Origin: a virus
Length of the DNA: 39,187 nucleotides
Strand: one strand, 5' to 3'
IMG/VR virus record: IMGVR_UViG_3300030333_001790
Span: 1-39,187 of that record
This document shows, piece after piece, positions 1 through 30,907 of the stretch. Each line of letters begins with the position of its first letter. Within the stretch, counting starts at the first letter, position 1. Below the pieces are notes generated by a model. The model was given only the letters and a program-made list of their open reading frames with translations. It made no database searches and was not told where the DNA came from. Both the position numbers and the translations under genes were made by a program.

Positions 1-405
1 CTACAGTTTTGGAACTGTATGGATTATGGAGTCACAGCAATCCAAAAGCAATTCATAGGTTCTATGTCATATGAATTGTATACAAGGGATCATGGGACCA
101 TGAAAGGCACTTATGTTGCCACTCTGGACAACTATCATGACCATCCTGACTTTGTAGATTACTCTACAAGTGAAACACCCGCAGAACACAAGTCACATAA
201 CCTCATTGAACTTGATAATGGGCAGTATGCACTGTACCCAAACAATAGAATGAGAATATATGATAATAGTATTACACCTAAAGAACCTAAACAACCTGAC
301 TTTAAGGTATCTACACAGTACTATCAGGTAGAAAATGGTAGGGAGTATGATGGAATGGGTGATCAGGATGATTATTTTTGGAAGATTGCGAAAGAACGCG
401 AATAA
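1..405 (+). CDS. 3' end of an unidentified phage gene (partial)
   Basis: The reading frame is open from the first base of the window to a TAA at 403-405, so this is the C-terminal part (134 residues) of a longer protein. The ATG at 19 is probably internal. Visible features are a Trp/Tyr/Phe-rich start, a segment reading GSMSYELYTRDHG, a stretch HKSHNLIELDNGQYALYPNN, and a charged end with several Asp/Glu. There is no signal peptide or membrane segment in the visible part. It resembles, from memory, conserved uncharacterised proteins of marine T4-like phages, but I cannot name a family. It lies upstream of gp25 with a 397-nt gap between them, so it may belong to a different transcript from the late cluster. 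Confidence 0.6.
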   Translation, partial: LQFWNCMDYGVTAIQKQFIGSMSYELYTRDHGTMKGTYVATLDNYHDHPDFVDYSTSETPAEHKSHNLIELDNGQYALYPNNRMRIYDNSITPKEPKQPDFKVSTQYYQVENGREYDGMGDQDDYFWKIAKERE

Positions 406-3290: not shown

Positions 3291-6200
3291 ATGTCAGACA
3301 ATACAAGAGTCAAAATTAGTTCAGTTGTTAAAAATCAACTGCCAGATTTTATAAGAGCAGATTTTCCACTTGCTGGTGAATTTTTAGACCAATATTATAC
3401 TGCTATAGAAAATCAAGGATCTACACTTGACCTCTTGCAAAATATTGATCAGTATATAAAAATTGATGAGTTAGTAGACCTTGTAGATTCTACCACTTTG
3501 TCTAGTAATGTTGGAATAACAAATGATGTTATAGATGTTAAATCTACCATTGGATTTCCTAAGACATATGGATTGCTTGAGATTGATGATGAGATTATAA
3601 CATATACTGGAATTACAACTAACTCATTTACTGGGTGTGCCAGAGGATTTAGTGGCATTACATCCTATAGAAGTATCAATAAACCAGATTGCCTGGTATT
3701 TTCTCAATCTGGTATTGCCACACACTCTACTGATACAACTGTCAAAAACTTAAGTGTTCTTTTCTTAAAAGAATTTTTTAAAAAGGTAAAAAAACAAATT
3801 ACACCAGGATTTGAAGAGAGACAACTTTCTAGTGGCATAGATAAAAGATTATTCATTAAACAATCAAAAGACTTCTACTCATCAAAGGGAACAGATCAAT
3901 CTTTTGAGATTTTGTTTAGAGCTTTGTATGGAAAAGATGTAGAAGTTATAAAACCAAGGGATTTTCTTTTCATACCATCAAATGCTGACTATAAAGTATC
4001 AAAACAGTTAGTGGTAGAGGCTATTGAGGGTGATCCTCAAGATTTAATTAATAGAAACTTATTTCAAGATAATGTATTCAATTTCCCTAAGGCAAATGGT
4101 GCTATTAGTGGAGTAGAAAAAATTACAAGAGGAGATAAAACTTATCACAGGTTAAGTTTAGATTTTGATTTTAATTTAGATTCAATAAGTGGTGATTTCT
4201 CAATACATCCTAGCACCAAATTAGTAACTTCTGTTTCTGTGGGAGCTACTGTGTTGAATGTGGATTCAACAGTTGGATTTGGAACCACAGGAACTTTGAT
4301 AGCAGATTATATTGATGGATCTTCTAGTACCATAAATTATACATCAAAATCTTTGAATCAATTCTATGGATGCACTGGAATTGATCAAAATATTTCATCA
4401 ACTCAAGATTTAAGAATAGATTCTTTTGCTTATGGTTTTTCTGGAAGAGGAACAGAGGATATAGTAAAAGTTAAGGTTACAGGTGTTTTATCACGTTTAA
4501 ATTATGAATTTGGGGCAAGTTTCTACAATGAAGTAGGAAATATTATTGAACCAAAAGGATTAGGATCTGTTTCTAAAAGTCAAGTAACTGAAAACTTATT
4601 TTCTAATATTTCAGCTACTTATAATGTAGGATCTATTGAACTTATTGACTCATCTAACTTTACATACAAATTAAACCTTATTAATAACCATGATTTTAAA
4701 TCTGGTGATGATGCTTTGATAGATGGACTATCTTGTGAAATTATTTCATTGATAAGTTCTAAAGAAGTATTGATTAAGGGTTCTGGAGAGTTAGATGAAA
4801 ATAGATCATACAAAATTCAAAGATTATTGTCAAATGCTAAATTAAGTAACTATCCTGATGCTAGTATCTTTACCACTAATGTTCAAAACTCTTATTTGGA
4901 CCAAGGTTGTGTTTATATAGCATCTCCATCAATTCCAAGTTACTTTAATGACGCTTTAGACATCAGAGAGACAGATATTAAGTTTTCTGGGTCATTTGTA
5001 GAAGATACTGAAATAACAATTAACAATCATGGACTCATAACAGGTGATAATGTTACTTACGTAAATGGTGGTGATGATAACAAGTTAGATATTGATGAAA
5101 GTGAGTATTTTGTTAAAAAAGTAGATATCAATACCATTAAACTTTCTAAGAGTAGTGCAAATATCTCAAATGACATATTTGTCACATTTAGTGGAACTGT
5201 GACTGATAATAAATTTGAACTCACTAGATTTGCTCAAAAATCAATACAATCTCAAAAATTAATTAGAAAGATTGATACTCCAGTATCTGCTTTGGTCAAT
5301 AAACCCACTCCAAGAGGAAAAATTGGTATTTTGGCAAATGGAGTTGAGATTCTTAATTACAAATCAAATGATGTTGTTTATTATGGTGCTATTGAAGAAA
5401 TTCCAGTTACTAGTGGTGGAGATAACTATGATGTCATAAATCCACCTATTTTAGACATTACAGATGGAGTTGGAGTGGGAGCTTCTGCTTATTGTGAAGT
5501 TCAAGGTTCTGTAGAGAGAATAGATGTAGTAGATGGAGGATTTGACTATCTTGATGTGCCTACTATAAAAGTAAGTGGTGGAAATGGATCTGGATGCATA
5601 GCGTTTGCTAATTTAATTCAAAAAGATCATTCTTTGACATTTGACTCTACTGAAACTGGAGGAAGTGTTAATCTTACAAATAACACAATAGGATTTACCA
5701 CATTTCATAAATTTAGAGATGGAGAACTTGTAACTTATATTACAGATAAACAAACTGCAATATCTGGTTTAACAACCAATGCTCCTTACTTTTGTTCTAT
5801 TAAAGACTCAACCACTGTTTCATTGCATAATAATTTTTCAGATGCTATCTCTGGTATTTCTAGTGTCAACTTAACTGCTTTTGGAGTTGGAATACAAGAG
5901 CTCAAGTGTGCCATTCAAAAAAGAGTTGTTAGTTCTATAAGTATTGGAAGTTCTGGATCTGGTTATACTAACAAGTTAACTTCTGTCACATCTTCTGGAA
6001 TTAACACTGCTACTGGAATAATTAATATTCCTAATCATGGATATAAGACAGGAGAGCTTATCAGATATGATAGTAAGAGCACACCAATAATTGGACTCTC
6101 TACTTTAACTGATTACTATGTTACTGCAGTAGATGGAGGTTCATTTAAATTATCTGCTGTTGGAGTTGGTTCTACGCCAGCTACTTTCCATGTAAGAAAT

Positions 6201-9200
6201 AAGGAATATCTTCAATTATTCTCTGGTGGTTCTGGTATTCATGAATTTAATTATCCACCTGTCACAGTGTCATTAACTGGTCATATAGGTGTATCTACTC
6301 TATCAGGTCAGGACTTTAATGCATCATTACGTCCTGTGGTAAGGGGATTTATAAAATCAGTATATATTGAAAGTGGTGGAATTGGATATGGATCATCAGA
6401 TGTAATCAATTATAATAGACAACCAACTTTCACACCTAAGAGTGGAAAAAATGCTCAATTGATTCCAATCATAAGCATTGATGGTAAATTAACAGAAGTC
6501 ATAGTATTGAATGCTGGAACTGAATATAATTCACCACCAGATATAAAATTAGTAGGAAAAGGAAAAGGAACTAAAATTATTCCAATTTTAAAAGGTGGTA
6601 GTATTGAATCTGTAAAGATAATCAATGCTGGTATAGGACATACATCAACTGATGCTAACATCACAGTAACATCTAATGGAAGTGGTGCTAAATTCTTCTC
6701 CAATCCAAAAACATGGACAATCAATAGTGTTGAAAGATTAATACAAAATGATCAAATTACAACTGATGATGGAATAGTTTCTAATGGAATAAGTGATGAA
6801 TATGGTTTGCAATATTCACACTTATATGCTCCTAGAAAATTAAGACAATCTGTGGTGGTTAAAAAGGCTGTAGGTGATAAAGAAGTTTTTGTTGCTGATT
6901 TAGATTTACAAGAAGATATTGAACAGGTATCTGTCACTCACTCTCCAATAATTGGATGGGCATATGATGGAGCTCCAATTTATGGTCCATATGGATTTAC
7001 TAGAGCTTCTGGAGGTCCAATTAAAATTCTTGAGTCTGGATACTCTCCAACAATATCTAGCGTAAGACCTAATCCTTTAACTGCTACAGGAGAACAAGTA
7101 TACTCTGAGGGATTTTTTGTAGAGGATTACGTTTTTTCTGAGGATAAAGATTTAGATGAACACAATGGTAGATTTTGCAAAACTCCAGAATTTCCTAATG
7201 GTGTTTATGCATATTTTGCGCCAATAAATTCAACTGTAAATGATGATGAAGGTGCATTTAAAAACTTTAGAAGACCACAGTTTCCATATTTCATAGGTAA
7301 TTCATATAAACATGAACCAATTGAGTTTAATTTTAAAAGTACTTCAAATCAAGATCTTTTAGATTTAAATAAAACAAATTTTGTTAGAAACACTGGACCA
7401 TACAATTTTCTTTTAGAAGATACTAGTTATGATTTTCTTATTAATCCTAGTAATATTCATAAACAAAGAACTCTTGTCACATCTACCACTTCAGGAGTTA
7501 TAGATTCTGTAGGAATTAATACTGGTGGATCTAGATATAAGGTTGGAGATGAAGTAGTCTTTGAAGATGCAGGATCAAGTGGATATGGTGCTAAAGCATC
7601 AGTTAAGTTTATTCAAGGTAAAACTATAAATCAAGTTAGTGCTGGATTTACTGAATTTTCTAATGTAGAATTTGTATTAGGAAAATATGCTGGACAATTT
7701 GTTGGGTATACCACTGTACCTCATAGTTTTCATGCTGTAGAAAACGTATTTGTTTCTGGATTAAGCACTGCAGGAATAAAAAATAATTCATCAAAAATTA
7801 TTGGTGTTTCTACTGACACATTTAAATTATTCAAATCAGTTGATGCTTCATCATCAACTGGTATAGTAACTTATTTTAATTTAGATAGTGTTTCATCTAT
7901 AAGAGAGAATGATATTTTAGGAATAGGAACAGAACAGGTAAAAGTATTGAATATTGAGAATGATTTATCTAGAATTAGAGTTATTAGAGAACATAACTCT
8001 ACTGTTGGTAGTGCTCATACAGCAAATAGTCTCATTTCACAAAAACCAAGAAATTTTTCTTTTTCATCTCCAACAAAATTAGAAAATGCTGATTTAAGAT
8101 TGAATAAAGAATTGTATTTTAATCCAGTAGAGTCAGTTGGATTGGGAACTCTTTCTGGTGTTGGAATTGGATCAACTTTATCATTCTCAAATCCAGGTAC
8201 AGGTATAAGTGAGATATTTATTCCTACTAAATCTGTTTTTATTAAAAATCATGGACTATTAACTGGAGATGCTTTAACATATTCTACTAATGCAGGAGCA
8301 GCTGTATCAGTGTCAACTGATGGGATTGATGGATTTGCTTTATCTCAAGGACAAACAGTATTTGCAGCTAGACTTAGTAAAGATTTAATTGGAATCGCTA
8401 CTTCAAGAGTAGGATTAGGTTCTACAGGATCTTTTGTAGGAATTGATAGCACAACAACAGTATCCACTTTATTCTTTATTGGAATAGGAACAGGTGTATC
8501 TCATAGTTTTAAAACCAACTATGATAATGTATTGACAGGTTCAGTAAGTAGATCATCAGTAACAGTATCCACATCTTCTACTCATGGTCTTAAGGTAAAT
8601 GATGATATTGTATTAAATATTCAACCAGGAATAACAACAACTATAAAGGTAGCATATAATGATTATAATAGAAGACTAGTAATTGATCCTAGAACATTTG
8701 CTTCTGGAGATGTAAGTATTGGAAATGATACTATAACAATTGCTAGACATGGTTATAATAGTGGACAAAAAGTTATTCACACTGCAACTACTTCATCTGG
8801 TGGTTTAGTTGACAATAGAATTTATTATGTCGCTGTAATAGATAAAAATACAATAAAGTTATCCAACAATTACTATGATGCAATACACTTAGAACCAAAA
8901 GTAATTAATATTACTAGCGCCTCTGCTGGAACTATTTCTCCAATTAATCCTCCAATAAAATTAGAGAGAAATGAAACAGTGGTATTTGATCTCTCTGATT
9001 CATCTTTATCATTTGTTGATGGTGGAGTTTCATATAGTGCTTTTGATTTTAATCTTTATGATGATTCAAATTTAAGTAATTTATTTGTAACATCAGGAAA
9101 AACAGATGATTTTAATGTAGTTAAAACTGGTGGAGTAGGTATAAACGCTAATTCTAGTTTGACAATTAAAAATGTAGATCAAATTGATAAGGTATTATAC

Positions 9201-12200
9201 TATAACTTAGTTCCAGTAAATAAAACATTAAATTCATCACTCAAAACTGAAATCATTAGAGATACAGAAAATATTAAAAATTCTAATTCTGCTACATTAA
9301 GTCCTAGTGTTTTGACAGGTGCTCATTCTCTAGTAGGAGTTGGAACCACAACATTTTCATTTGTATCTCCTCACCTTCCTCAAAAATTAGAGTATGTCTC
9401 ATCTGATGGTGTATTATCATATGTTACTAATTCTAAGAATGTTGAAGGAGCTATATCTAATGTTCAAGTTGAAGATAGAGGATATCAATATAGAACTCTG
9501 CCTGGAATAAGCACCATAATATCAGAAAATGGTAATAGTGCTATCCTAGAAACTAGAGGAAGATCCATTGGACAAATAAGTAAAACAAATATTCAAGATA
9601 TTGGTTTTGATTATTCTGCAGATAGAACACTTAGACCTGAAGCCAACATACCACAGTTAATTAAATTAGATCTTCTTACATCATTAGATTCTATTGGTAT
9701 TACATCTGTTGGTAACAATTATCTAGAAGCTCCTGATTTGGTTCTTTTAGATGGGTTAACAAATAAAGAAGTTGGAGATGTTGATTTAGAATATAAACTA
9801 GGTGACACTCAAGTTAGTATTTTGAGTAATACTAAAACATTGAATAATGTTACTCCTAAAATTATACCTACTAGCAATTCTAATGGATTTACTATTAATA
9901 GTATAGATTATGATGATGGAAATAAAAATGTAACATTAACAATTGGAGCTAGTTTTAGTAGTGCTGCAGATTACCCATTTGAGGTGGGTAAGAAGGTCAT
10001 GATTGAGGGTGTTAGTGTTGGAGTAGGTAGTACTGGTAGAGGATTTAATAGTGAGAATTATGATTTTAAATTATTTGAAATTCTAGCAACAGATCCTAAT
10101 ATTGGTGGAACATTAGGAACAGTAAGATATAACCTATCAAATATCATAGCAGATGGTGAAACTCCAGGTACTTTCCAACCCAATCTTTCATCAGCTAAGA
10201 TAGTGGCTGAAAAAGACTTTCCAATTTTTGATATCAAATTAAAGGTTGATGAATTTGAAAAAGGTGAGGATGTTGTTTCTGGATCTAAGAGAGGATCTAT
10301 ACAATCTTGGAATAATTCCTATGGTTATCTTAGAGTATCCTCAACACAAAATTTTGAGATTGGAGAATCCTTTATAGGAGAGTCTTCAGGAACCAGAGGA
10401 ACTATAACAGAAGTTTTAGTGGATAATTCTTTATATGATATTAATTCATCCTCCATAGTTCAAGAGGGTTTTCAAAATAACACTGGATTCTTAAATAGTA
10501 ATTTACAAAGGATATTTGATAGTGATTACTATCAGTATTTCTCATATTCTTTAAAATCAGAATGCGAATTTGATAAGTGGAATGAACCAGTCTCTGCTTT
10601 AAATCATACTGCAGGATTTAAAAAATTTAGTGATTTAATCATAAAAAATGAAGTAGGGGTGGGAATAGTAACTTCTCAATCAGAAACTAAATTTGAAGTT
10701 ATCAATGATTTGATATCTGTCATGGATATGAACACAGTATTTGATTTTGACTTAGTAAGAGAAAAAACCTTAACTATTGATTCTAAAGTCATATCTGATG
10801 AATTAGTTTTTGATTCTAAGATCTTAAAAGATTTTAATGAGTCTATTGGTAATAGAGTATTGACTATTGATGATATTAGTACAGATTTCAATAGTAATGC
10901 TAGAACAGACGCTTTCCAATCTGTTGATAGTTTTACTTTAGCAGATGTAAGATATAGAAAATATATTGCTTACATAAGAGATAAAAGATTTACTAAGGAA
11001 AGACAAATTTTGTTAGTTTCTGCTCTTCATGATGATGTTGGTAATATTTTCCTCAATCAGTATGGTAGAGTTGAAACCAACACTGACTTAGGTGAATTTG
11101 GTGGTGATTTAGGTGCATTTGATATGGATGTGGCAGGTGATGATGGAAGATTACTATTCTTCCCTAAAAAGTTTAAATTCAACAATTATGATGTTTCTAA
11201 TGTTGCATTTAATATTTCTGAAAGTGTTGCTGGTGTTGGATCTACTGGATTAGGTGGTATTGTTAATATTGTTAGTAGCACTGCTACCATACCCTTAGGA
11301 ATCACCACACAATATAATATAGTATCTTTTGCTACCACTTACAGAGGGTCAAAGATATTAGTAGCATATGCTGCTAGTGATGCATCATACTGGGAACATG
11401 ATGAGATAACTTTGGTTCATGATGGAACTAATGTAGATTTGGTGGAATATGGTCAATTAACAACATCAAATGTTGGTAGTGCATCTGGTGAACCTGGTCT
11501 TGGAACTTATAGTGCATATATTGCTGGTGGTAGAGTTAATTTAGATTTGCACCCAACAGTAAGCACAGCAAGCACATATGTTGCTAATACAATTCATGTG
11601 GACTTTGGAAATGCTTCATCTGCTGGTATTGGAACCACATCATTAAATACTTCTCAATTAGATTCAAAAGTTACTTCTATATCTGCTAGTGGATCACCAT
11701 CTGCTACTACAGTGGCATCATATGAATCTGAAACCTTTAATGGTGCTTATTACATTGTAAGTGTTGAAGATACCACCAATAGTCAATATCAAATATCTGA
11801 AGTCATATGTGTTGATGATGGCACTGAAACATATGTTACTGAATATGCTATCAATCAAACTAATGCCAATCTAGGTGATTTTAGTGCTGCTATTTCTGGA
11901 GACTTTACTAATCTTACGTTCACTCCATTAGCAAGTGCAAATGTTCAGGTTAGAGTATTCCAAGCTGCTTTAAGACTAGTAAATGAAGCAAGTAATGTTA
12001 CTGAGATAGATTTAACTAATGCTACTATTGATACTGGATTTGGTGCTTATACTGCTACTGAAACTGATGTTAAGAGAGCATTTGAACTTAAGCATAGACA
12101 GTTACCAATATTCAAGAGAGACTTTGTTGGTAGTGCTACCACAACAGTTGATTTAGTTGAAGATACAGTTAGAATACCTGATCATTACTTTGTGACTGGA

Positions 12201-15200
12201 GAAAAGTTAAATTACAGATATACTGGGTCTGGAACTACTTCTGCAATCATAATTGAAGAACAAGCAATAACTGGATATGGCACTACAGATAAGTTACCAG
12301 ATGAGGTTTATGCTATCAAGGTTGATGATTCTACTCTCAGATTAGCTACTTCTGCAGAAAATGCATTAAAAACAAATCCTACTTATTTGGATATCACTGC
12401 AGTTGGTGTTGGAACTTCTCACTCCTTTACTTCTAGCAAACAAAATTCAAGATGTATATTGAGTATTGATAACGTAATTCAATCTCCAATAGTCTCTACT
12501 TCTGTTACTACAACCATTAGTGCTGATGTATCTTCTACCACAGATAAAATTAAGTTATCAGGTATCACATCTATAACTGGTGGTGATATGTTAAAGATTG
12601 GTAGTGAGATTATGAAAGTTAATTCTGTTGGATTGGGTGCTACTAATGTTCTTCTTGTCACTAGACCTTGGATGGGAACAGAAGTAACAACTCATAGTGA
12701 TGGATCTTTAGTCACCAAAGTAGATGGTGCTTTTAATATTGTGGATAGCACAGTTAACTTCTACACTGCCCCTGTTGGATTGACTCCAATTTCAACAACA
12801 ACAAATGAACCAGATGAAAGGGATTTTGTTGGTATAGCAACTCACTCAACATTTAATGCAAGAGCATTTATGAGATCTGGTATCACTGGTAGTTCTGATG
12901 AACCATATGCTGGTAACTTTATATTTGATGATATTTCTGCTAACTTTACTGGTCTAACAACTGAATTTACTCTCCAATCTGAGGGAAGTAATGTAGCAGG
13001 TTTCTCTACAAATAATGCTCTTATATTAGTCAATCAAATTGCTCAAGGACCACAAAGATTTACTGGTGGTGTATCTGTGCCTGGTGATTATACATTGATA
13101 GAGAGTGTAGGAATTACTAGTATTCAATTCACAGGATCTATTTCTTCTGTAGCATCTGATCCTAATAGTTCTAATGTTCCACTTGGTGGTGTTATTGTTT
13201 CTGTGGGATCTACAGAGGGTTTAGGATATCAACCATTGGTTGCTGCAGGTGGTACTGCAGTTGTTTCTGGATTAGGAACAATTAGTTCAATAAGCATTGG
13301 TAATAGTGGTTCTGGTTATAGATCTGGCATTCAGACAGTGGTAAATGTTGGTGTTCAAACATTAAGCACAACAGCACCTAATATTGAGTTTATTGGTACT
13401 GCTGCTATCAGTGGTGGTAATATTGTAAGTGTTGCTATTACTAATCCTGGTACTGGTTATACATCTACCAATCCTCCATTGGTTGTAATAGATGAACCAC
13501 TATCTTATAGTAATATGCCTTTGTTCTATTCTTCAAATCAATCTGGAGTAGGATCTGAAGCTAGAGCAAATGTAGTTGTTGGTTTAGGTGGTAGTGTTAT
13601 TGATTTTGAAATTACAAATCAAGGATATGGTTATGGAGAAACTCAGAAACTAACCATAGGTGTTGGTGGTTCTGTTGGTATTCCAACTGCAGGTGCTGCT
13701 GAGTTTAGAGAATTCCAATTAACTGTTCAGGAAACAGTGAGTGATAGTTTTGTTGGATTTACTGTTGGTGATTTCCAAGTATTAGATCCTCTTGATGATT
13801 TGTTTGATGGTAAAACAGTTTCATTTGCATTAAAACTAAATGGAGCACAACAAACAATTCAAGCACAACCAGGATCAAATATAGATGTTGAAGTTTTAAT
13901 ATTAGTGTTTATTAATGATATTCTTCAAGTTCCTAATGAGGGTTATGAATTTAAAGGTGGTAGTTTCATCACCTTTAAGGAAGCACCAAAAGAGGGTGAT
14001 ACATCCAAGATTCTATTCTATCAAGGAACTGGATCTGTTGATGTAACTAGTGTTGATATTTTAGAAACAGTTAAAGCAGGAGATGAATTAAAATTATATG
14101 ATCAAGATTTTTCTTTGGAAGAAAATGAAAGAACAGTTATTAGTGTTGATTCTTCTGATACTGTTTCTACTAATTTGTACGCTGGACCAGGTATTACTAC
14201 AAATGAAAGTTTCCAAAGAGCTGTAACATGGTCTAAACAAATTGAAGATAAATTTATTGATGGTCAAGCTGTTACTAAAGATAGACCACATTATGAACCA
14301 TTGATATATCCTATTACAAATATCATTCAACCTGTAGGTGTTGGATCTACTGTAATATTTGTCTCTAACATTAGAACCTTCTTTGATAATTCTAAAGAAA
14401 ATTATGATACACAAAATGATATTAGAATTATATCTCAAGATAGTTTAGTTGGAGCATCAGCTACTGCCTTTGTTTCTGTTGCTGGAACAGTCACCTCATT
14501 TGATATAACAAATCCAGGTGTTGGATACACCATAGCACCATCTGTATCTATTACAACTCCTATAGGATTAACAACTTCTCAAGGTGCTAGAGCAACTGCT
14601 ACCATAAGTGGTGTTGGAACTGTCAATGCTATCACTGTTTCTTTTGGTGGAACTACCACTGGATTTGCATATACTAGCACTGCTGCTCCATCAGTTTTAA
14701 TAGGTGAACCAAAATCTATCACATCTTTTGAAACTATTAAGGATGTATCCATATCTGGTGATTTTGGAATCATATCTGGTATTTCTACTACATCTGTTGG
14801 AGTAGCATCCACTGGTATAGTTTTTGATTTATTACTTCCAAAAGATTCTTTATTCAGAGACTCTGAAGTGGTTGGCACTGCTATCACTGTTAGTGGAATA
14901 CAAACTGGATATTACTTTACAGTCTTTAATTCTAATGTAGGTGCTTCAGTAACTTCTCTATATCAAGATGGAACTGTGGTGGGTATTGGAACATCATTTA
15001 TAGATAATGTGTATGAAGTTGCTAAAGTTTCTATTGCTCAAACTATGGGTATAGGAATTGGACTGACCTATGTTGCACAAGTAACAGTCAGTGTCCAAGA
15101 TTATAATGGATTATCTGGACTTGGACATAGTGAGTTCTTTGGAGAGTATAGTTGGGGCAGAATAGTTACTGCACCCAGAGCATCTGCTAGAACATTTAAT

Positions 15201-15296
15201 TCATATGCTGGAAATAGTGATGGTTTAGTTGGCATAACTACCTCAGCTATTATTGAAAGGATCAACCCATTAAGATCTGCAAATTACAACACATAA
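3291..15296 (+). CDS. giant 4001-residue virion structural protein in the gp7 position
   Basis: Its position between gp6 and gp8 is that of T4 gp7 (a wedge protein of 1032 residues), but I see no clear gp7 sequence beyond the N-terminal region, where residues 1-60 look like a conserved baseplate attachment segment. The rest is a mosaic of beta-type repeats. These include: two E-I/Y-x-G 'surface' modules near residues 80-130 and 305-365 and a third near 3080-3150; about eight HG-x-x-TGD modules from residue 580 to 2990; about a dozen GSGYT-type repeats; a YHYH-like domain at about 1215-1345 (GWAYDGAPIYGPYG at 1222-1235, tetrad replaced by YAYF at 1306-1309); and two copies of the DGTN module near 2700-2870. 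No signal peptide or membrane segment is visible. The stop overlaps a late promoter motif. It is probably a very long peripheral baseplate or fibre-like protein. Confidence 0.8.
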   Translation: MSDNTRVKISSVVKNQLPDFIRADFPLAGEFLDQYYTAIENQGSTLDLLQNIDQYIKIDELVDLVDSTTLSSNVGITNDVIDVKSTIGFPKTYGLLEIDDEIITYTGITTNSFTGCARGFSGITSYRSINKPDCLVFSQSGIATHSTDTTVKNLSVLFLKEFFKKVKKQITPGFEERQLSSGIDKRLFIKQSKDFYSSKGTDQSFEILFRALYGKDVEVIKPRDFLFIPSNADYKVSKQLVVEAIEGDPQDLINRNLFQDNVFNFPKANGAISGVEKITRGDKTYHRLSLDFDFNLDSISGDFSIHPSTKLVTSVSVGATVLNVDSTVGFGTTGTLIADYIDGSSSTINYTSKSLNQFYGCTGIDQNISSTQDLRIDSFAYGFSGRGTEDIVKVKVTGVLSRLNYEFGASFYNEVGNIIEPKGLGSVSKSQVTENLFSNISATYNVGSIELIDSSNFTYKLNLINNHDFKSGDDALIDGLSCEIISLISSKEVLIKGSGELDENRSYKIQRLLSNAKLSNYPDASIFTTNVQNSYLDQGCVYIASPSIPSYFNDALDIRETDIKFSGSFVEDTEITINNHGLITGDNVTYVNGGDDNKLDIDESEYFVKKVDINTIKLSKSSANISNDIFVTFSGTVTDNKFELTRFAQKSIQSQKLIRKIDTPVSALVNKPTPRGKIGILANGVEILNYKSNDVVYYGAIEEIPVTSGGDNYDVINPPILDITDGVGVGASAYCEVQGSVERIDVVDGGFDYLDVPTIKVSGGNGSGCIAFANLIQKDHSLTFDSTETGGSVNLTNNTIGFTTFHKFRDGELVTYITDKQTAISGLTTNAPYFCSIKDSTTVSLHNNFSDAISGISSVNLTAFGVGIQELKCAIQKRVVSSISIGSSGSGYTNKLTSVTSSGINTATGIINIPNHGYKTGELIRYDSKSTPIIGLSTLTDYYVTAVDGGSFKLSAVGVGSTPATFHVRNKEYLQLFSGGSGIHEFNYPPVTVSLTGHIGVSTLSGQDFNASLRPVVRGFIKSVYIESGGIGYGSSDVINYNRQPTFTPKSGKNAQLIPIISIDGKLTEVIVLNAGTEYNSPPDIKLVGKGKGTKIIPILKGGSIESVKIINAGIGHTSTDANITVTSNGSGAKFFSNPKTWTINSVERLIQNDQITTDDGIVSNGISDEYGLQYSHLYAPRKLRQSVVVKKAVGDKEVFVADLDLQEDIEQVSVTHSPIIGWAYDGAPIYGPYGFTRASGGPIKILESGYSPTISSVRPNPLTATGEQVYSEGFFVEDYVFSEDKDLDEHNGRFCKTPEFPNGVYAYFAPINSTVNDDEGAFKNFRRPQFPYFIGNSYKHEPIEFNFKSTSNQDLLDLNKTNFVRNTGPYNFLLEDTSYDFLINPSNIHKQRTLVTSTTSGVIDSVGINTGGSRYKVGDEVVFEDAGSSGYGAKASVKFIQGKTINQVSAGFTEFSNVEFVLGKYAGQFVGYTTVPHSFHAVENVFVSGLSTAGIKNNSSKIIGVSTDTFKLFKSVDASSSTGIVTYFNLDSVSSIRENDILGIGTEQVKVLNIENDLSRIRVIREHNSTVGSAHTANSLISQKPRNFSFSSPTKLENADLRLNKELYFNPVESVGLGTLSGVGIGSTLSFSNPGTGISEIFIPTKSVFIKNHGLLTGDALTYSTNAGAAVSVSTDGIDGFALSQGQTVFAARLSKDLIGIATSRVGLGSTGSFVGIDSTTTVSTLFFIGIGTGVSHSFKTNYDNVLTGSVSRSSVTVSTSSTHGLKVNDDIVLNIQPGITTTIKVAYNDYNRRLVIDPRTFASGDVSIGNDTITIARHGYNSGQKVIHTATTSSGGLVDNRIYYVAVIDKNTIKLSNNYYDAIHLEPKVINITSASAGTISPINPPIKLERNETVVFDLSDSSLSFVDGGVSYSAFDFNLYDDSNLSNLFVTSGKTDDFNVVKTGGVGINANSSLTIKNVDQIDKVLYYNLVPVNKTLNSSLKTEIIRDTENIKNSNSATLSPSVLTGAHSLVGVGTTTFSFVSPHLPQKLEYVSSDGVLSYVTNSKNVEGAISNVQVEDRGYQYRTLPGISTIISENGNSAILETRGRSIGQISKTNIQDIGFDYSADRTLRPEANIPQLIKLDLLTSLDSIGITSVGNNYLEAPDLVLLDGLTNKEVGDVDLEYKLGDTQVSILSNTKTLNNVTPKIIPTSNSNGFTINSIDYDDGNKNVTLTIGASFSSAADYPFEVGKKVMIEGVSVGVGSTGRGFNSENYDFKLFEILATDPNIGGTLGTVRYNLSNIIADGETPGTFQPNLSSAKIVAEKDFPIFDIKLKVDEFEKGEDVVSGSKRGSIQSWNNSYGYLRVSSTQNFEIGESFIGESSGTRGTITEVLVDNSLYDINSSSIVQEGFQNNTGFLNSNLQRIFDSDYYQYFSYSLKSECEFDKWNEPVSALNHTAGFKKFSDLIIKNEVGVGIVTSQSETKFEVINDLISVMDMNTVFDFDLVREKTLTIDSKVISDELVFDSKILKDFNESIGNRVLTIDDISTDFNSNARTDAFQSVDSFTLADVRYRKYIAYIRDKRFTKERQILLVSALHDDVGNIFLNQYGRVETNTDLGEFGGDLGAFDMDVAGDDGRLLFFPKKFKFNNYDVSNVAFNISESVAGVGSTGLGGIVNIVSSTATIPLGITTQYNIVSFATTYRGSKILVAYAASDASYWEHDEITLVHDGTNVDLVEYGQLTTSNVGSASGEPGLGTYSAYIAGGRVNLDLHPTVSTASTYVANTIHVDFGNASSAGIGTTSLNTSQLDSKVTSISASGSPSATTVASYESETFNGAYYIVSVEDTTNSQYQISEVICVDDGTETYVTEYAINQTNANLGDFSAAISGDFTNLTFTPLASANVQVRVFQAALRLVNEASNVTEIDLTNATIDTGFGAYTATETDVKRAFELKHRQLPIFKRDFVGSATTTVDLVEDTVRIPDHYFVTGEKLNYRYTGSGTTSAIIIEEQAITGYGTTDKLPDEVYAIKVDDSTLRLATSAENALKTNPTYLDITAVGVGTSHSFTSSKQNSRCILSIDNVIQSPIVSTSVTTTISADVSSTTDKIKLSGITSITGGDMLKIGSEIMKVNSVGLGATNVLLVTRPWMGTEVTTHSDGSLVTKVDGAFNIVDSTVNFYTAPVGLTPISTTTNEPDERDFVGIATHSTFNARAFMRSGITGSSDEPYAGNFIFDDISANFTGLTTEFTLQSEGSNVAGFSTNNALILVNQIAQGPQRFTGGVSVPGDYTLIESVGITSIQFTGSISSVASDPNSSNVPLGGVIVSVGSTEGLGYQPLVAAGGTAVVSGLGTISSISIGNSGSGYRSGIQTVVNVGVQTLSTTAPNIEFIGTAAISGGNIVSVAITNPGTGYTSTNPPLVVIDEPLSYSNMPLFYSSNQSGVGSEARANVVVGLGGSVIDFEITNQGYGYGETQKLTIGVGGSVGIPTAGAAEFREFQLTVQETVSDSFVGFTVGDFQVLDPLDDLFDGKTVSFALKLNGAQQTIQAQPGSNIDVEVLILVFINDILQVPNEGYEFKGGSFITFKEAPKEGDTSKILFYQGTGSVDVTSVDILETVKAGDELKLYDQDFSLEENERTVISVDSSDTVSTNLYAGPGITTNESFQRAVTWSKQIEDKFIDGQAVTKDRPHYEPLIYPITNIIQPVGVGSTVIFVSNIRTFFDNSKENYDTQNDIRIISQDSLVGASATAFVSVAGTVTSFDITNPGVGYTIAPSVSITTPIGLTTSQGARATATISGVGTVNAITVSFGGTTTGFAYTSTAAPSVLIGEPKSITSFETIKDVSISGDFGIISGISTTSVGVASTGIVFDLLLPKDSLFRDSEVVGTAITVSGIQTGYYFTVFNSNVGASVTSLYQDGTVVGIGTSFIDNVYEVAKVSIAQTMGIGIGLTYVAQVTVSVQDYNGLSGLGHSEFFGEYSWGRIVTAPRASARTFNSYAGNSDGLVGITTSAIIERINPLRSANYNT

Positions 15297-25468: not shown

Positions 25469-26302
25469 ATGGCGCAACCCTCCACTAGATCAGAACTCAT
25501 TGATTACTGCAAAAGAAAACTTGGTGCGCCTGTTCTAGAAATAAATGTTGCTGATGAGCAAATAGATGATTTGATAGATGATGCTATTCAATATTTTCAA
25601 GAAAGACATTTTGATGGAGTATATCAAACTTATTTAAAGTACAAGATAACTCAAGAAGATATTGATAGAGGAAAAGCAACTGGTGGTGCAGGTATAACCA
25701 CTAGCACAGTCAACACCACAGTTGGTGTTACCACTCAATTTGATTATACTGAAAATAGCAACTTCCTTCCTATCCCTCCAGAAGTATTAGGAGTAACTAA
25801 AATTTTTCATTTTGATGGAAGTAATACTATCACCAACAACATGTTTAGTGTGAAGTATCAGTTGTTTTTGAATGACATATATTATTGGGGTGCTACTGAA
25901 CTTCTTTCATATGCTATGGTAAAAACTTATCTGGAAGATATTAACTTTTTACTTACCACAGAGAAACAGATAAGATTTAATAAGAGACAAGATAGATTAT
26001 ACTTAGACCTTGATTGGGGTAGTTTATCTGTTGATGATCATCTAGTAATTGATTGCTTTACACTTCTAGATCCAGATTCATACCCTAGAGTCTATAATGA
26101 TTCATTCTTAAAACCATATGCCACTGCACTTATTAAAAGACAGTGGGGACAAAACCTTATGAAGTTTCAGGGAGTTAAGTTGCCAGGTGGAGTAGAATTA
26201 AATGGAAGGGAGATATATGAGGATGCTGAAAAAGACTTAGATAAGATAAGGGAAATGATGTCTAATACTTATGAACTTCCTCCACTAGATATGATAGGTT
26301 AA
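25469..26302 (+). CDS. 13: neck protein gp13
   Basis: Head completion/neck protein that joins the portal vertex to the tail connector. It is 277 residues against 309 in T4. The start SRSELIDYCKRKLGAP-like segment (here TRSELIDYCKRKLGAP, residues 5-20) followed by INVADEQIDDLIDDAIQYFQ is the family hallmark in T4-like phages. The C-terminal part includes ALIKRQWGQNLMKFQGVKLP, a conserved helix-plus-loop. It is followed 4 nt later by gp14, and the gp13-gp14-gp15 order is the same as in T4. A late promoter motif lies just upstream. Confidence 0.93.
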   Translation: MAQPSTRSELIDYCKRKLGAPVLEINVADEQIDDLIDDAIQYFQERHFDGVYQTYLKYKITQEDIDRGKATGGAGITTSTVNTTVGVTTQFDYTENSNFLPIPPEVLGVTKIFHFDGSNTITNNMFSVKYQLFLNDIYYWGATELLSYAMVKTYLEDINFLLTTEKQIRFNKRQDRLYLDLDWGSLSVDDHLVIDCFTLLDPDSYPRVYNDSFLKPYATALIKRQWGQNLMKFQGVKLPGGVELNGREIYEDAEKDLDKIREMMSNTYELPPLDMIG

Positions 26303-26306
26303 TAAT

Positions 26307-27695
26307 ATGGCACTCAATCCTTTCTTTTTACAAGGGTCTTCTGGTGAACAAAATCTAGTTCAGAGTTTAATTAATGAACAGATTAAAATGTATGGAGTGG
26401 AGATTTTCTACATTCCTAGAAGATACATCACGAAAAATACTGTAATACAGGAAGTTATAGAATCTAAATTTGAAGAGGCAATACCACTTGAAGCATATGT
26501 GGATACCTTTGATGGATATGAAGGACAAGGTTCTCTTCTATCTAAGTTTGGTGTGCAGGCACTTGATGATCTTACACTTATCATCTCAAGAGATAGATTT
26601 GAAAATTATATCACACCACTCATCAAAAATATACCTAATATAGAATTAGCAACTAGACCTAAAGAGGGAGACTTAATATACTTCCCACTAGGTGATAGGT
26701 TATTTGAGATTAAGTTTGTAGAACATGAGAAACCATTCTACCAGTTAAAAAAGAACTATGTATATGAACTCAGATGTGAACTTTACAGATATGAAGATGA
26801 AGTCATAGATACTGGAGTTGGAGATATTGATGATAATTTAGAAGAGGCAGGTTATATTGAAACACTTACTCTAGTGGCATCAGGAACACCTGCAGTGCTT
26901 ACAACTGGCATAGTGGATGGTGGAGTATCTTTTGTCACAATATCTAACAGGGGAGAAGATTATACTAGTCTTCCAAGAGTGGCAATTTCATCTGCACCTG
27001 CAGGAGGAATAACTGCTATTGGTATAGCATCCATGACAGATGATATAGTTGATTATGATGGAGTTAAATCATCTAAGATACAAAGAATTGATATTATTAA
27101 TCCAGGTTCTGGATATACAGTTGCTCCAAGTGTAGTGGTTGTTGGTGGTGGAGGAGCAGGTTTTGCTGCTACTGCAACAATCAATGATGGCACACTAGGA
27201 GTTGTTACATTTACTGGTGGTAGTGGATATTCTACTGCACCAACAATTACTTTCTCAGCACCACCAGGATCAGGCACAACAGCAACTGCAATTGCGTATG
27301 TAGGTAGTGGTAATACAGTAGGTATTGTTACACAAATTGGAATTACTAATGGTGGTTCTGGATACACCAGTGCTCCTACTGCAACAGTTACTTCACCATT
27401 TACAGGTGGTTCTGGAAATTACATATTCAATGAAGTTGTAACTGGTGCTGCAAGTAGCACAACTGCTAGAGTTAAATCATGGGATGCATCTACTAGAGAA
27501 CTTAAAGTTTCTATTACAAGTGGTGAATTTACAGTTGGAGAAGTTATCACAGGTAGTACATCAGGTGCTACTTATGAGTATCAAATAGTTGCTGCTACAA
27601 ATGATGATGATGGATTTGCAGAGAATACACCAATACAAAGTGCTGGAGATGATATAATAGACTTTACAGAGACCAATCCATTTGGAATGCCATAA
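26307..27695 (+). CDS. 14: neck protein gp14 with a repeat-bearing C-terminal extension
   Basis: Residues 1 to about 185 are a standard gp14 neck protein (NEQIKMYGVEIFYIPRRY, then the FGVQALDDLTLIISRDRFE region). Together with gp13 it forms the neck ring where the tail attaches. The protein has 462 residues against 256 in T4. The extra C-terminal part has four GSGYT-type repeats (near residues 215, 266, 305 and 350: GEDYTSLP, GSGYTVAP, GSGYSTAP, GSGYTSAP). These are followed by a V-V-x-G ... SW ... GEVITGSTSG module (about 375-430) and an acidic tail. The same modules occur in the giant baseplate proteins of this window. The stop codon lies inside a late promoter motif that serves gp15. Confidence 0.9.
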   Translation: MALNPFFLQGSSGEQNLVQSLINEQIKMYGVEIFYIPRRYITKNTVIQEVIESKFEEAIPLEAYVDTFDGYEGQGSLLSKFGVQALDDLTLIISRDRFENYITPLIKNIPNIELATRPKEGDLIYFPLGDRLFEIKFVEHEKPFYQLKKNYVYELRCELYRYEDEVIDTGVGDIDDNLEEAGYIETLTLVASGTPAVLTTGIVDGGVSFVTISNRGEDYTSLPRVAISSAPAGGITAIGIASMTDDIVDYDGVKSSKIQRIDIINPGSGYTVAPSVVVVGGGGAGFAATATINDGTLGVVTFTGGSGYSTAPTITFSAPPGSGTTATAIAYVGSGNTVGIVTQIGITNGGSGYTSAPTATVTSPFTGGSGNYIFNEVVTGAASSTTARVKSWDASTRELKVSITSGEFTVGEVITGSTSGATYEYQIVAATNDDDGFAENTPIQSAGDDIIDFTETNPFGMP

Positions 27696-27719: not shown

Positions 27720-28721
27720 ATGTTTGAATATTTTTATCACGAAATAATGAGAAGAACCATTATTGCTTTTGGTTCTATCTTTAACAACATTAATATTCAA
27801 CATACTAGTGATGATGATTCAGTTGTTAGTAATACTAAAGTGCCTTTGGCATATGGTCCTACACAAAAATTCTTAGCAAGATTAGAGCAAGTACCTGATC
27901 TCAACAGACCAGTTCAAATTACATTACCAAGAATGTCATTTGAGTTAAATGGTCTTAGTTATGATCCTGCAAGAAAATCAACAACCACTCAAACATTTTT
28001 AAAAGGTGTAAAAGGTGATAAAAGTACCATTGCAAAAACATTTTTACCTGTACCATACAATCTAGATTTTGAACTTAGTATCTTCACTAAACTGAATGAT
28101 GATATGCTTCAGATAGTGGAACAAATACTCCCATACTTTCAACCTGCATATACTGTATCAGTAGACCTAGTTGATACTATTGGAGAGAAAAGAGATATTC
28201 CCATAGTATTAAATTCTATCACTACTAGTGATGATTATGAAAGTGATTTTTCTACTAGGAGAGCACTTATCTATACTATGAGATTTACTGCAAAGACTTA
28301 CATGTTTGGTCCTGTCAACACAGATGTATCCAAAGATATTATCAAAAAGGCATCTATTGGATATGTTGCTGGTTCAAAAACTACAACTCCAGTTAGAGAA
28401 GTTACTTATAGTGTTGTTCCTAGAGCTACTAAAGCATATGGAGATACAGTTACTACAAATCTAAGTGAAAATATAGACGATGAAGTAGCAATCTTTAGTG
28501 TTAACAGTGTTGATGGCATACAGAAAACTAATTACATATACATAGATCAAGAGGAGATGTTTGTAGAGTCTATCTCTGGCACAACACTAACTGTCAAGAG
28601 AGCACAAGACAATACAACTGCAGCATCTCATGTTCTTGGTGCAGAAATTAAAGTTATCACTGCTAGTGATAATAGTGCCATAGAATTTGGTGATGACTTT
28701 GGATTTGATGGAACCATCTAA
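27720..28721 (+). CDS. 15: tail sheath stabiliser / tail terminator gp15
   Basis: Gp15 caps the tail tube and sheath and joins them to the neck. The N-terminus MFEYFYHEIMRRTIIAFGSI and NLDFELSIFTKLNDDMLQIVEQILPYF (middle) are characteristic of the family. It is 333 residues against 272 in T4. The extra C-terminal segment (about 255-315) has a module, IYIDQEEMFVESISG followed by TLTVKRAQDNT and an Ala-Ser-His segment, that also occurs in the giant proteins. A ribosome binding site AAAGG is 9 nt upstream. The stop TAA overlaps the gp16 ATG by one base, so translation is coupled. Confidence 0.9.
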   Translation: MFEYFYHEIMRRTIIAFGSIFNNINIQHTSDDDSVVSNTKVPLAYGPTQKFLARLEQVPDLNRPVQITLPRMSFELNGLSYDPARKSTTTQTFLKGVKGDKSTIAKTFLPVPYNLDFELSIFTKLNDDMLQIVEQILPYFQPAYTVSVDLVDTIGEKRDIPIVLNSITTSDDYESDFSTRRALIYTMRFTAKTYMFGPVNTDVSKDIIKKASIGYVAGSKTTTPVREVTYSVVPRATKAYGDTVTTNLSENIDDEVAIFSVNSVDGIQKTNYIYIDQEEMFVESISGTTLTVKRAQDNTTAASHVLGAEIKVITASDNSAIEFGDDFGFDGTI

Positions 28722-29188: not shown

Positions 29189-30907
29189 ATGTCTGACGAC
29201 TATAAAAATTTGCCATCTATTGACGACTTTTCAGAAAGTTCAGAGGAACTCCCATCAGTTGTTGATTTATTAGAAGAAGAAGATTTACCATCAGTAGAAG
29301 GATATATTGAAGTAGAAGAGGAAGTTCAAACTATAGAGGATGCTAGTGGAGAAACATTTGCAGAAGTAAAGGATATTGTTCCTCCTTGGCCTGAGTTATT
29401 ACGTTTAGTAAATGACGTCAAAGAGAGTATACCTGAGATACCTGAGATAAAATCATATGACAATGAACTTCAAGAACTTTTAACACATATTGAGCAAGTA
29501 AAGGAAAGCATTCCAGAAGTTCCTGAAGTAAGATATTATGAGGATGATATACAATCACTAAAAGAAGATATTCAAGGAGTAAGAGAGGATATACCTAAGT
29601 TTCCTAAGTGGGTAAATGAAGTAAATGAAGTTCCTGATTTTTCTTGGATTGGAAAAACTTTTAGTGTTATAGATGATGATTTTGATAGAGTTAATGATAA
29701 TCTTAGAACTCTCAAAGATACATTCAATCAAGACATTGAAAATCTAACAGAAAGTTTTGATACTAAAGATTTTGAAAAGAAAGTTGAAATTAAAGAAGTA
29801 AAAAAATATTTACAGGAAACAAAAGATAAAATATATGAAGAACTAAAAGAAACTGCCCTTAAGATATATGAGCATAGGAATCAATTTAAAGATGATGATA
29901 GATTACTGAAGAAAAGTGTATTAAGTAAATTAAATGAAGCAAAACAAAATATTGAAAAAAAGATAAGTGAGTCTAATAGTAAATATAGAGATGCTAATAA
30001 AGAAATAAAAAACTACTTTAATGGATTAAAAGAAGAAGTTGCCAATCTGCCAGAGGTAAAATATTATGATAAAGATATTAAAAAGTTAAGTGATAAAGCA
30101 GAGACTCATACTATCAATATTGCAGAACTTTATAAAATTGTAGAGGATATAAAAGGAACTCAACAAACTTTGAGTGAGGAGATAGTTAATAATCGTCCTA
30201 TTGCACCTGACCCATCTGAAAAACAAGGAGATGATCCCCTCACTCCTACAGATCAAAAATTTGCTACTCTTCAAGATTTAGCAGCAAACTATAGACTATT
30301 TGTAAACAGAGTTGAACAACAGTTATACACCATTGGTGGAGGTGGTGCTGGATTCATCAAAGATCTTGATGATGTAAGTTTTGATCAAACTACAGGAACA
30401 AATGAATTACTAATTTACAGTGGTGATAAGTGGGTTGGTATAGCAAGCACAGCACTAGGTAGCAGCACTCTTACAGGATTAGATGATGTTGATGATTCTA
30501 ATTTAGGTGATGGTAGATTCTTAAGATATAATGCAACAGAAGAAGAGTTTACCTTTGAACCAGTATCTGCTACTAATTTAGAATTGATTGCTGGTGATAT
30601 TCAATCTGGTGTAAAGACTACTTCTGCTACAGGACAAGCAGTTGTAATGTCAATTAGTGCCTCCACTTATAGGTCTGTTAGTTATCAGATACAGGCAGTT
30701 CAAGGATCTAATTTTAATATGACAACCATCAATGTAATTCATGATGGTACAAATACATATATGAATGAATTTGGAACTATCAATCAACCAACAGGTATAG
30801 CAACATTCTCCACTGACATCAATAGTGGTGCTTTGAGATTGCTTGGATTTCCTGCATCATCAAGTTCTACCACATTCAAGGTCATTTTCACAGCACTACA
30901 AGTGTAA
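29189..30907 (+). CDS. coiled-coil virion structural protein between gp16 and gp17
   Basis: The 572-residue protein has three parts. Residues 1-70 are very acidic. About 70-330 is Lys/Glu-rich, helical and probably coiled coil (for example VKESIPEIPEIKSYD and QNIEKKISESNSKYR), with repeated ESIPE/PEV-type turns. The rest is beta-type: two LDDV motifs (FIKDLDDVSFDQ near 392, LTGLDDVDDSNLGDGRFLRY near 430) of the kind common in phage fibre proteins. It ends in a domain with a DGTNTYMNEFG motif (near 520) that matches a module in the 4001-residue protein. The architecture suggests a fibre or whisker-like protein. A role similar to T4 fibritin is only a possibility. It splits the terminase gene pair. 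Confidence 0.75.
   Translation: MSDDYKNLPSIDDFSESSEELPSVVDLLEEEDLPSVEGYIEVEEEVQTIEDASGETFAEVKDIVPPWPELLRLVNDVKESIPEIPEIKSYDNELQELLTHIEQVKESIPEVPEVRYYEDDIQSLKEDIQGVREDIPKFPKWVNEVNEVPDFSWIGKTFSVIDDDFDRVNDNLRTLKDTFNQDIENLTESFDTKDFEKKVEIKEVKKYLQETKDKIYEELKETALKIYEHRNQFKDDDRLLKKSVLSKLNEAKQNIEKKISESNSKYRDANKEIKNYFNGLKEEVANLPEVKYYDKDIKKLSDKAETHTINIAELYKIVEDIKGTQQTLSEEIVNNRPIAPDPSEKQGDDPLTPTDQKFATLQDLAANYRLFVNRVEQQLYTIGGGGAGFIKDLDDVSFDQTTGTNELLIYSGDKWVGIASTALGSSTLTGLDDVDDSNLGDGRFLRYNATEEEFTFEPVSATNLELIAGDIQSGVKTTSATGQAVVMSISASTYRSVSYQIQAVQGSNFNMTTINVIHDGTNTYMNEFGTINQPTGIATFSTDINSGALRLLGFPASSSSTTFKVIFTALQV

Follow-up and report, generated by a model that had tools for sequence, protein, structure and literature searches.

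In T4-like phages, a group whose cyanophage members are common marine viruses, gp14 acts as the gate between head and tail. The T4 protein (PF11649, PHROG 679; PDB 9lu4, 9mkb) has 256 amino acids including a 78-residue C-terminal arm, and has neither a barrel module nor repeats. According to a preprint (PMC12270204), residues 178–256 of T4 gp14 are disordered in isolated necks, in the virion they make extensive contact with residues 203–245 of gp15, and residues 193–238 of gp13 form the fibritin-binding domain. Fibritin (wac), of which the T4 whiskers are made, is a protein in its own right, a trimeric fibre attached to gp13. In the accessible part of a neck classification (PMC4362835) no insertions are mentioned for cyanophages.

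The stretch of DNA analysed here, 39,187 nucleotides long and called the window below, belongs to a virus record of 40,124 bases. On its + strand gp13, the head-tail adaptor Ad2 (25469..26302; PHROG 211), precedes gp14, the head closure protein Hc2 (26307..27695 with the stop codon; 462 amino acids; PHROG 460, PHROG 679, Pfam PF11649 and T4 gp14 in the PDB), and then gp15, the tail terminator or sheath stabiliser (27720..28721; Pfam PF16724), in which a DDFGF segment is preceded by a C-terminal insertion. From the PHROGs of the neighbouring ORFs, the order gp13-gp14-gp15-gp16 (small terminase) is that of T4. The window gp14 matches phrog_460 at E 1e-134 and phrog_679 at E 1e-55; its residues 3–171 score 113 bits with the Pfam T4_neck-protein family, for which the curated cut-off is 25, and in a PDB sequence search residues 3–168 match T4 gp14 at E 4e-28. 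With core sequence, core fold and gene order in common with T4, it is by homology a normal neck protein of a T4-like myovirus of the cyanophage type, and ordinary for its clade. Could its length be an artefact of fusion or frameshifting? That is ruled out, full-length forms being present in many independent records, and since the ORF is under purifying selection the protein is real. Near the start of the window (19–405), just upstream of the baseplate genes, there is a phrog_3704 ferredoxin-like protein.

The initial annotation had described a gp14 nearly doubled in length, its first 185 residues ordinary and the rest a repeat arm, and much of this stands. The length is 462 amino acids against 256 in T4, and a T4-type core occupies residues 1–178 (26307..26840), as delimited by Pfam, Foldseek, VIA-align and a low dN/dS. 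The T4 gp14 structures are the best match of the predicted core (Foldseek, 9mkb_0, E 2e-9), and its superposition on 9lu4_M by VIA-align gives Z 9.9 and 3.6 Å over 97 residues with a model core of modest confidence. Two AlphaFold2 models were made, one of the window gp14 and the other of the repeat-less S-PM2 gp14. As the core is weak in both (pTM 0.49 for the window, 0.34 for S-PM2), the models do not fix the orientation of what follows it. Residues 190–430 of the window protein are nevertheless confident relative to its weaker core, with block means mostly 77–92, and so is the segment from about 181 to 252 of S-PM2 (pLDDT 81–91), the remainder of that model being poor.

The predicted strands of these confident segments are at 182–186, 199–202, 208–215, 220–224, 235–238 and 244–252 in S-PM2, and at 184–190, 377–380, 386–393, 398–405, 413–416 and 422–426 in the window. 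The strand order of the S-PM2 barrel is thus equal to that around the window repeats, which places the latter between barrel strands 1 and 2. Alignment and models together indicate that the core is followed by one small six-stranded beta-barrel, from which the repeats are looped out between strands 1 and 2, so that the array would be tethered at both ends. Strand 1 of this clade-wide C-terminal barrel (residues 184–190; 26856..26876) is assigned from AlphaFold2, the S-PM2 strand at 182–186 and motif comparison; the insertion in the loop after it (residues ~191–372; 26877..27422) from the models and motif comparison; and strands 2–6 (NEVVTG ... VKSWD ... GEVITGSTSGA, residues 373–430; 27423..27596) from AlphaFold2, with pLDDT block means of 77–88. 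An acidic linker with a predicted helix (residues 431–446; 27597..27644), recognised by conservation, AlphaFold2 and charge, is the least conserved segment, and the protein closes with a conserved C-terminal peptide ending DFTETNPFGMP (residues 447–462; 27645..27692). The GEVITGSTSG module and acidic tail noted earlier are therefore both present, the net charge over residues 431–462 being -8. What is not supported is the notion of an added arm running to the C-terminus: the array interrupts a barrel domain found throughout the clade, and the last residues belong to the conserved end of gp14.

How distinctive is this barrel? Residues 183..429 of the window model superpose on single barrels in VIA-align with 69 residues aligned and Z ~6. 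The S-PM2 barrel has among its best fold matches residues 760–850 of 5iv5_BJ (Z 7.6, 3.9 Å over 83 residues, 8% identity) and also matches 9f4a_A0 (Z 8.1), both of them chains that we take to be T4 gp7, a baseplate protein; it aligned on translation-factor barrels too. Matches of Z 6–8 are middling and may reflect only a common arrangement, and the likeness to the gp7 domain, a common fold in a baseplate protein as the model has it, is no proof of common function. Within residues 185–462 there is no Pfam match at E <= 1, with which a distant relation is still compatible, and no PDB sequence relative of the extension below E 0.9, two chance matches to replication factor C apart. The repeats gave no clear fold match; they were folded only within the whole of gp14, so this is silent on fold novelty. 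Neither the PDB sequence matches nor the literature search yielded a cyanophage neck structure of this type, and in that search, which covered titles and abstract openings and extended to few subscription papers, no published description of such a gp14 layout was found.

The claim of four GSGYT repeats holds up, the first of the four being degenerate. With a repeat HMM they lie at residues 204–244 (GEDYT; 26916..27038), 256–293 (GSGYT; 27072..27185), 294–333 (GSGYS; 27186..27305) and 339–379 (GSGYT; 27321..27443, the HMM match extending into barrel strand 2). The HMM was built from 61 family members and for the window gp14 is in-sample. Independently of it, the summed pairwise score of the four repeats is 338 versus 151 +/- 12.5 for shuffled sequences, of which the highest reached 199 and none of 1000 reached 338. 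Several GSGYT-type repeats resembling those of gp14 also occur in a 4001-aa baseplate-wedge-type protein of the window (3291–15296), where the HMM gives nine weaker, out-of-sample matches, five of them at domain E-values <=4e-3. One stretch of the gp14 array is matched by a protein of Xanthomonas phage X1 annotated as tail sheath, with 54% identity over 57 query residues.

For the comparison with relatives, gp14 genes were gathered with six anchor queries, the best 80 loci each being kept, together with 21 loci of named phages and the window, so that the sampling was not random. Among 503 records, seven lacked a complete gp14 (four no usable start, two cut, one no match) and one (L089) was the window's own copy and was left out. 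The start codons of the resulting 495 proteins were script-chosen and may differ from annotation by some residues. Clustering at 85% identity reduced them to 113 rows, 102 of cyanophage type and 11 of outgroup, and rows remain related to one another. Cyanophage-type gp14, the barrel form, is recognised by a barrel module and an NPFG end, and the window protein has both. The closest named relatives, matching over the full length, are P-TIM68 and S-SM2. While the gp14 core matches 2329 records, the C-terminal 101 residues match 457 phage records, the names of which are all Synechococcus, Cyanophage, Prochlorococcus or Marine.

Other phages thus have the extension too: the conserved end is present in every one of the 102 non-redundant cyanophage-type rows, as NPFG in 101 and as DPFG in one. 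According to the initial annotation, an extension both universal in its clade and buried in the neck would have told against projecting domains; universality is what is found in these 102 rows, and a beta-repeat loop lying outside the barrel could well project. Like the window gp14, T4 gp14 has an acidic C-terminal region, there from about residue 178, with SPF near its end; [NST]PF is found near the gp14 end in 7 of 9 Straboviridae and in neither of two further outgroup rows, one an Ackermannvirid and the other an unclassified Vibrio phage. Homology of the cyanophage C-terminal peptide to the T4 end is thereby suggested by position and a three-residue motif, and residues 447–462 are probably the tail-docking end.

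What varies is the array. By HMM and eye, the 102 rows have 0 (21), 2 (11), 4 (67), 8 (2) or ~10 (1) repeats; two rows had their count set by eye, L261 from 2 to 4 and L175 from 9 to 10, and one row of ~644 amino acids counts 7 by HMM. Core, barrel and NPFG end are common to the window protein and to those of P-TIM68, P-SSM2 and S-SM2, which differ from it in repeat sequence and exact length only; P-TIM68 gp14 (471 amino acids, 58% identical to the window's) and P-SSM2 gp14, both of PHROG 460, have their four repeats in the same loop as the window. The same three parts are shared by S-PM2 and Syn30, which have no repeats, and by S-RIM2 and ACG-2014e, which have two in the loop between strands 2 and 3. 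In these 2-repeat forms the array lies between the strand-2 motif (in S-RIM2, FTVGEEIVGD) and strand 3 (AEVKSW), unlike the 4-, 8- and 10-repeat forms, where it is in the loop between strands 1 and 2. The regular expression used for placing loops left 14 of the 113 rows unplaced (the 11 of outgroup and L023, L067 and L073) and misfiled three (L037, L048, L062), and for these six cyanophage-type rows the loop was assigned by eye.

Since two different loops are used, the alignments point to at least two separate insertions of repeats in the gp14 barrel. In a quick tree of the core, without bootstrap, with the insertion left out and the groups named before the tree was made, a single clade of 4-repeat rows is compatible (p 0.63) and one of 2-repeat rows is rejected (p 9e-49), because 2-repeat rows mix with 0-repeat rows. 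Cores of repeat-less and repeat-bearing rows are up to 92% identical, the figure for a 0-repeat and a 2-repeat row. Recombination between phages could explain this mixing as ably as repeated gain and loss. In a matrix of similarity by repeat position, the third and fourth repeats of the 4-repeat forms come nearest to the pair of the 2-repeat forms, which could reflect positional orthology and could weaken the case for wholly independent origins of the repeats as sequences.

Constraint along the protein has been gauged from dN/dS among 14 close relatives, the core being taken on the 59 of 91 pairs with dS between 0.02 and 1.5. On those same 59 pairs it is 0.049 for the core versus 0.26 for the repeats; barrel and linker (367–446) have 0.19 on 58 of them, and for the C-terminal peptide a set of 45 pairs of its own gives 0.086. 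Conservation by column is 0.78 for the core, 0.60–0.66 for the repeats, 0.56 for the linker and again 0.78 for the C-terminal peptide. The protein is a relaxed middle between two constrained ends, and the repeats, though relaxed, are below 1. On alignment and prediction, then, the feature is real and clade-ordinary, and in its architecture a constant barrel, at the tail-docking end of gp14, bears a repeat loop that is exchangeable. In place of a doubled neck protein there is a testable layout, of constant core, barrel and end plus an exchangeable loop, for the function of which natural phage pairs differing by the entire loop are ready controls.

How might such a protein work? Barrel, acidic linker and C-terminal peptide (DFTExNPFG) occupy the position of the T4 C-terminal docking arm. 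Like that arm, the NPFG peptide would dock on gp15, so that six copies of the barrel would surround the head-tail joint. The four beta-repeats, which on sequence and prediction are inserted in the loop from strand 1 to strand 2 with both ends of the array held, would point outward as decoration, optional for viability, and candidate roles for this include a coat acting by steric hindrance or charge, weak contacts with surfaces and support for other neck parts. The array is most likely surface decoration without a host-specific role, and the fuller proposal, of a barrel at the tail-docking position whose tethered loop is dispensable outward decoration, we regard as reasonably probable. That exactly four repeats are kept in 67 of the 102 rows hints at a use for the array, which is not easily reconciled with its being optional.

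A more particular version of the decoration proposal can be based on repeat number. The barrel would have acquired GSGYT arrays on two or more occasions, using two loops, and always with an even count (2, 4, 8, ~10), because only even arrays return the chain to the barrel. The six tethered loops would form a clade-specific crown around the head-tail joint, a place where whiskers of the T4 type are missing. That all four array sizes are even is suggestive, with four size classes of which one was counted by eye; taken whole, this version is rather doubtful.

Alternatively the array may be a structural clamp that strengthens the head-tail joint by lying flat against gp13, gp15 or the first ring of the sheath. 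It is at the tail-docking region of gp14, many of these phages have a C-terminal insertion in gp15, the lengths of gp14 and gp15 are correlated (Spearman 0.63 over 101 non-redundant rows), and a four-repeat array is retained throughout one large group. The correlation, however, is confounded by ancestry, and individual phages depart from it: Syn30, with 0 repeats, has a gp15 of 309 amino acids as annotated or 342 by ORF call, P-SSM2 with four has one of 280, and close relatives differ by an entire array. In related phages gp15 has either ~261–280 or 310–359 amino acids, which, with the presence of its extra C-terminal module gauged by length, suggests that the module is present or absent without a strict link to gp14 repeat number. 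A clamp is to be thought unlikely, and decoration is preferred to it.

The initial annotation had suggested a surface sensor or adhesin in place of the missing whiskers; on this reading six projecting arms could touch the host or keep hold of the long tail fibres. The absence on which this builds is confirmed. A search for the fibritin family phrog_1056 was positive for all four Straboviridae, for none of the 10 cyanophage genomes and not for the single Ackermannviridae genome; it is imperfectly specific in that one of 14 control genomes (Haloferax volcanii) also matched. The family has no match in the 17 window proteins scanned, and among the 1428 records matched by T4 fibritin in tblastn no cyanophage word is among the ten commonest first words of the names. 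The fibritin-binding domain III of gp13 is, by alignment, absent from 5 of 5 cyanophage-type rows including the window and present in 4 of 4 Straboviridae rows. The loss of a T4-type whisker system in cyanophages is real as far as homology reveals it, and a proponent could add that no part of gp14 evolves faster than the array and that the 4001-aa baseplate-type protein has repeats of a similar kind. Yet the array and the T4 whiskers have only a neck location in common, and Syn30, S-PM2 and S-CREM2 lack fibritin and repeats alike, as is also so of an Ackermannvirid with a gp14 of 213 amino acids, so repeats are not needed to compensate for whisker loss. Nor does the host record favour an adhesin setting host range: Synechococcus WH7803 is listed for Syn30 and S-PM2 (0 repeats, the latter from its reference record), for S-RIM2 R21_2007, the gp14 of which is 100% identical to the 2-repeat query, and for S-SKS1 (4 repeats), and one strain for phages with 0, 2 and 4 repeats is evidence against a host-specific role. 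A dN/dS of 0.26 leaves no diversifying selection visible over the array as a whole, and in cyanophage A-1(L) the distal carbohydrate-binding module of the true neck fibre did not bind the host (PMC10966104). A sensor or adhesin that replaces the whiskers is on this evidence improbable, and outward decoration is again the better reading.

That barrel and loops are a docking platform for another virion protein, such as a clade-specific neck fibre or collar, with the repeats setting reach, is more improbable still, for though 5iv5_BJ is among the best fold matches of the S-PM2 barrel and a review (PMC2984593) cites an unpublished observation of whiskers on one cyanomyovirus, no partner gene has been identified and none shown to track repeat number.

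Some further forms deserve mention. A 546-aa gp14 (L211:2495-4132) and those of similar loci have, by eye, a third insertion site close to the barrel's end, where ~80 residues are added to a protein with four repeats. The S-CREM2 gp14 (L084:1489-2532) has, also by eye, an insertion not of GSGYT type in the loop between strands 2 and 3, as in the 2-repeat forms; a 'stopper' is among the S-CREM2 virion proteins detected by mass spectrometry (PMC10665884). The longest gp14 seen (L175:2495-5050), of 852 amino acids, has an unrelated stretch inside its array of about ten repeats. In the window itself, the small terminase is directly followed by a 572-aa protein (29189–30907) that matches only 18 phage records, and the last 97 residues of which are similar to an S-SM2 tail-fibre-like protein.
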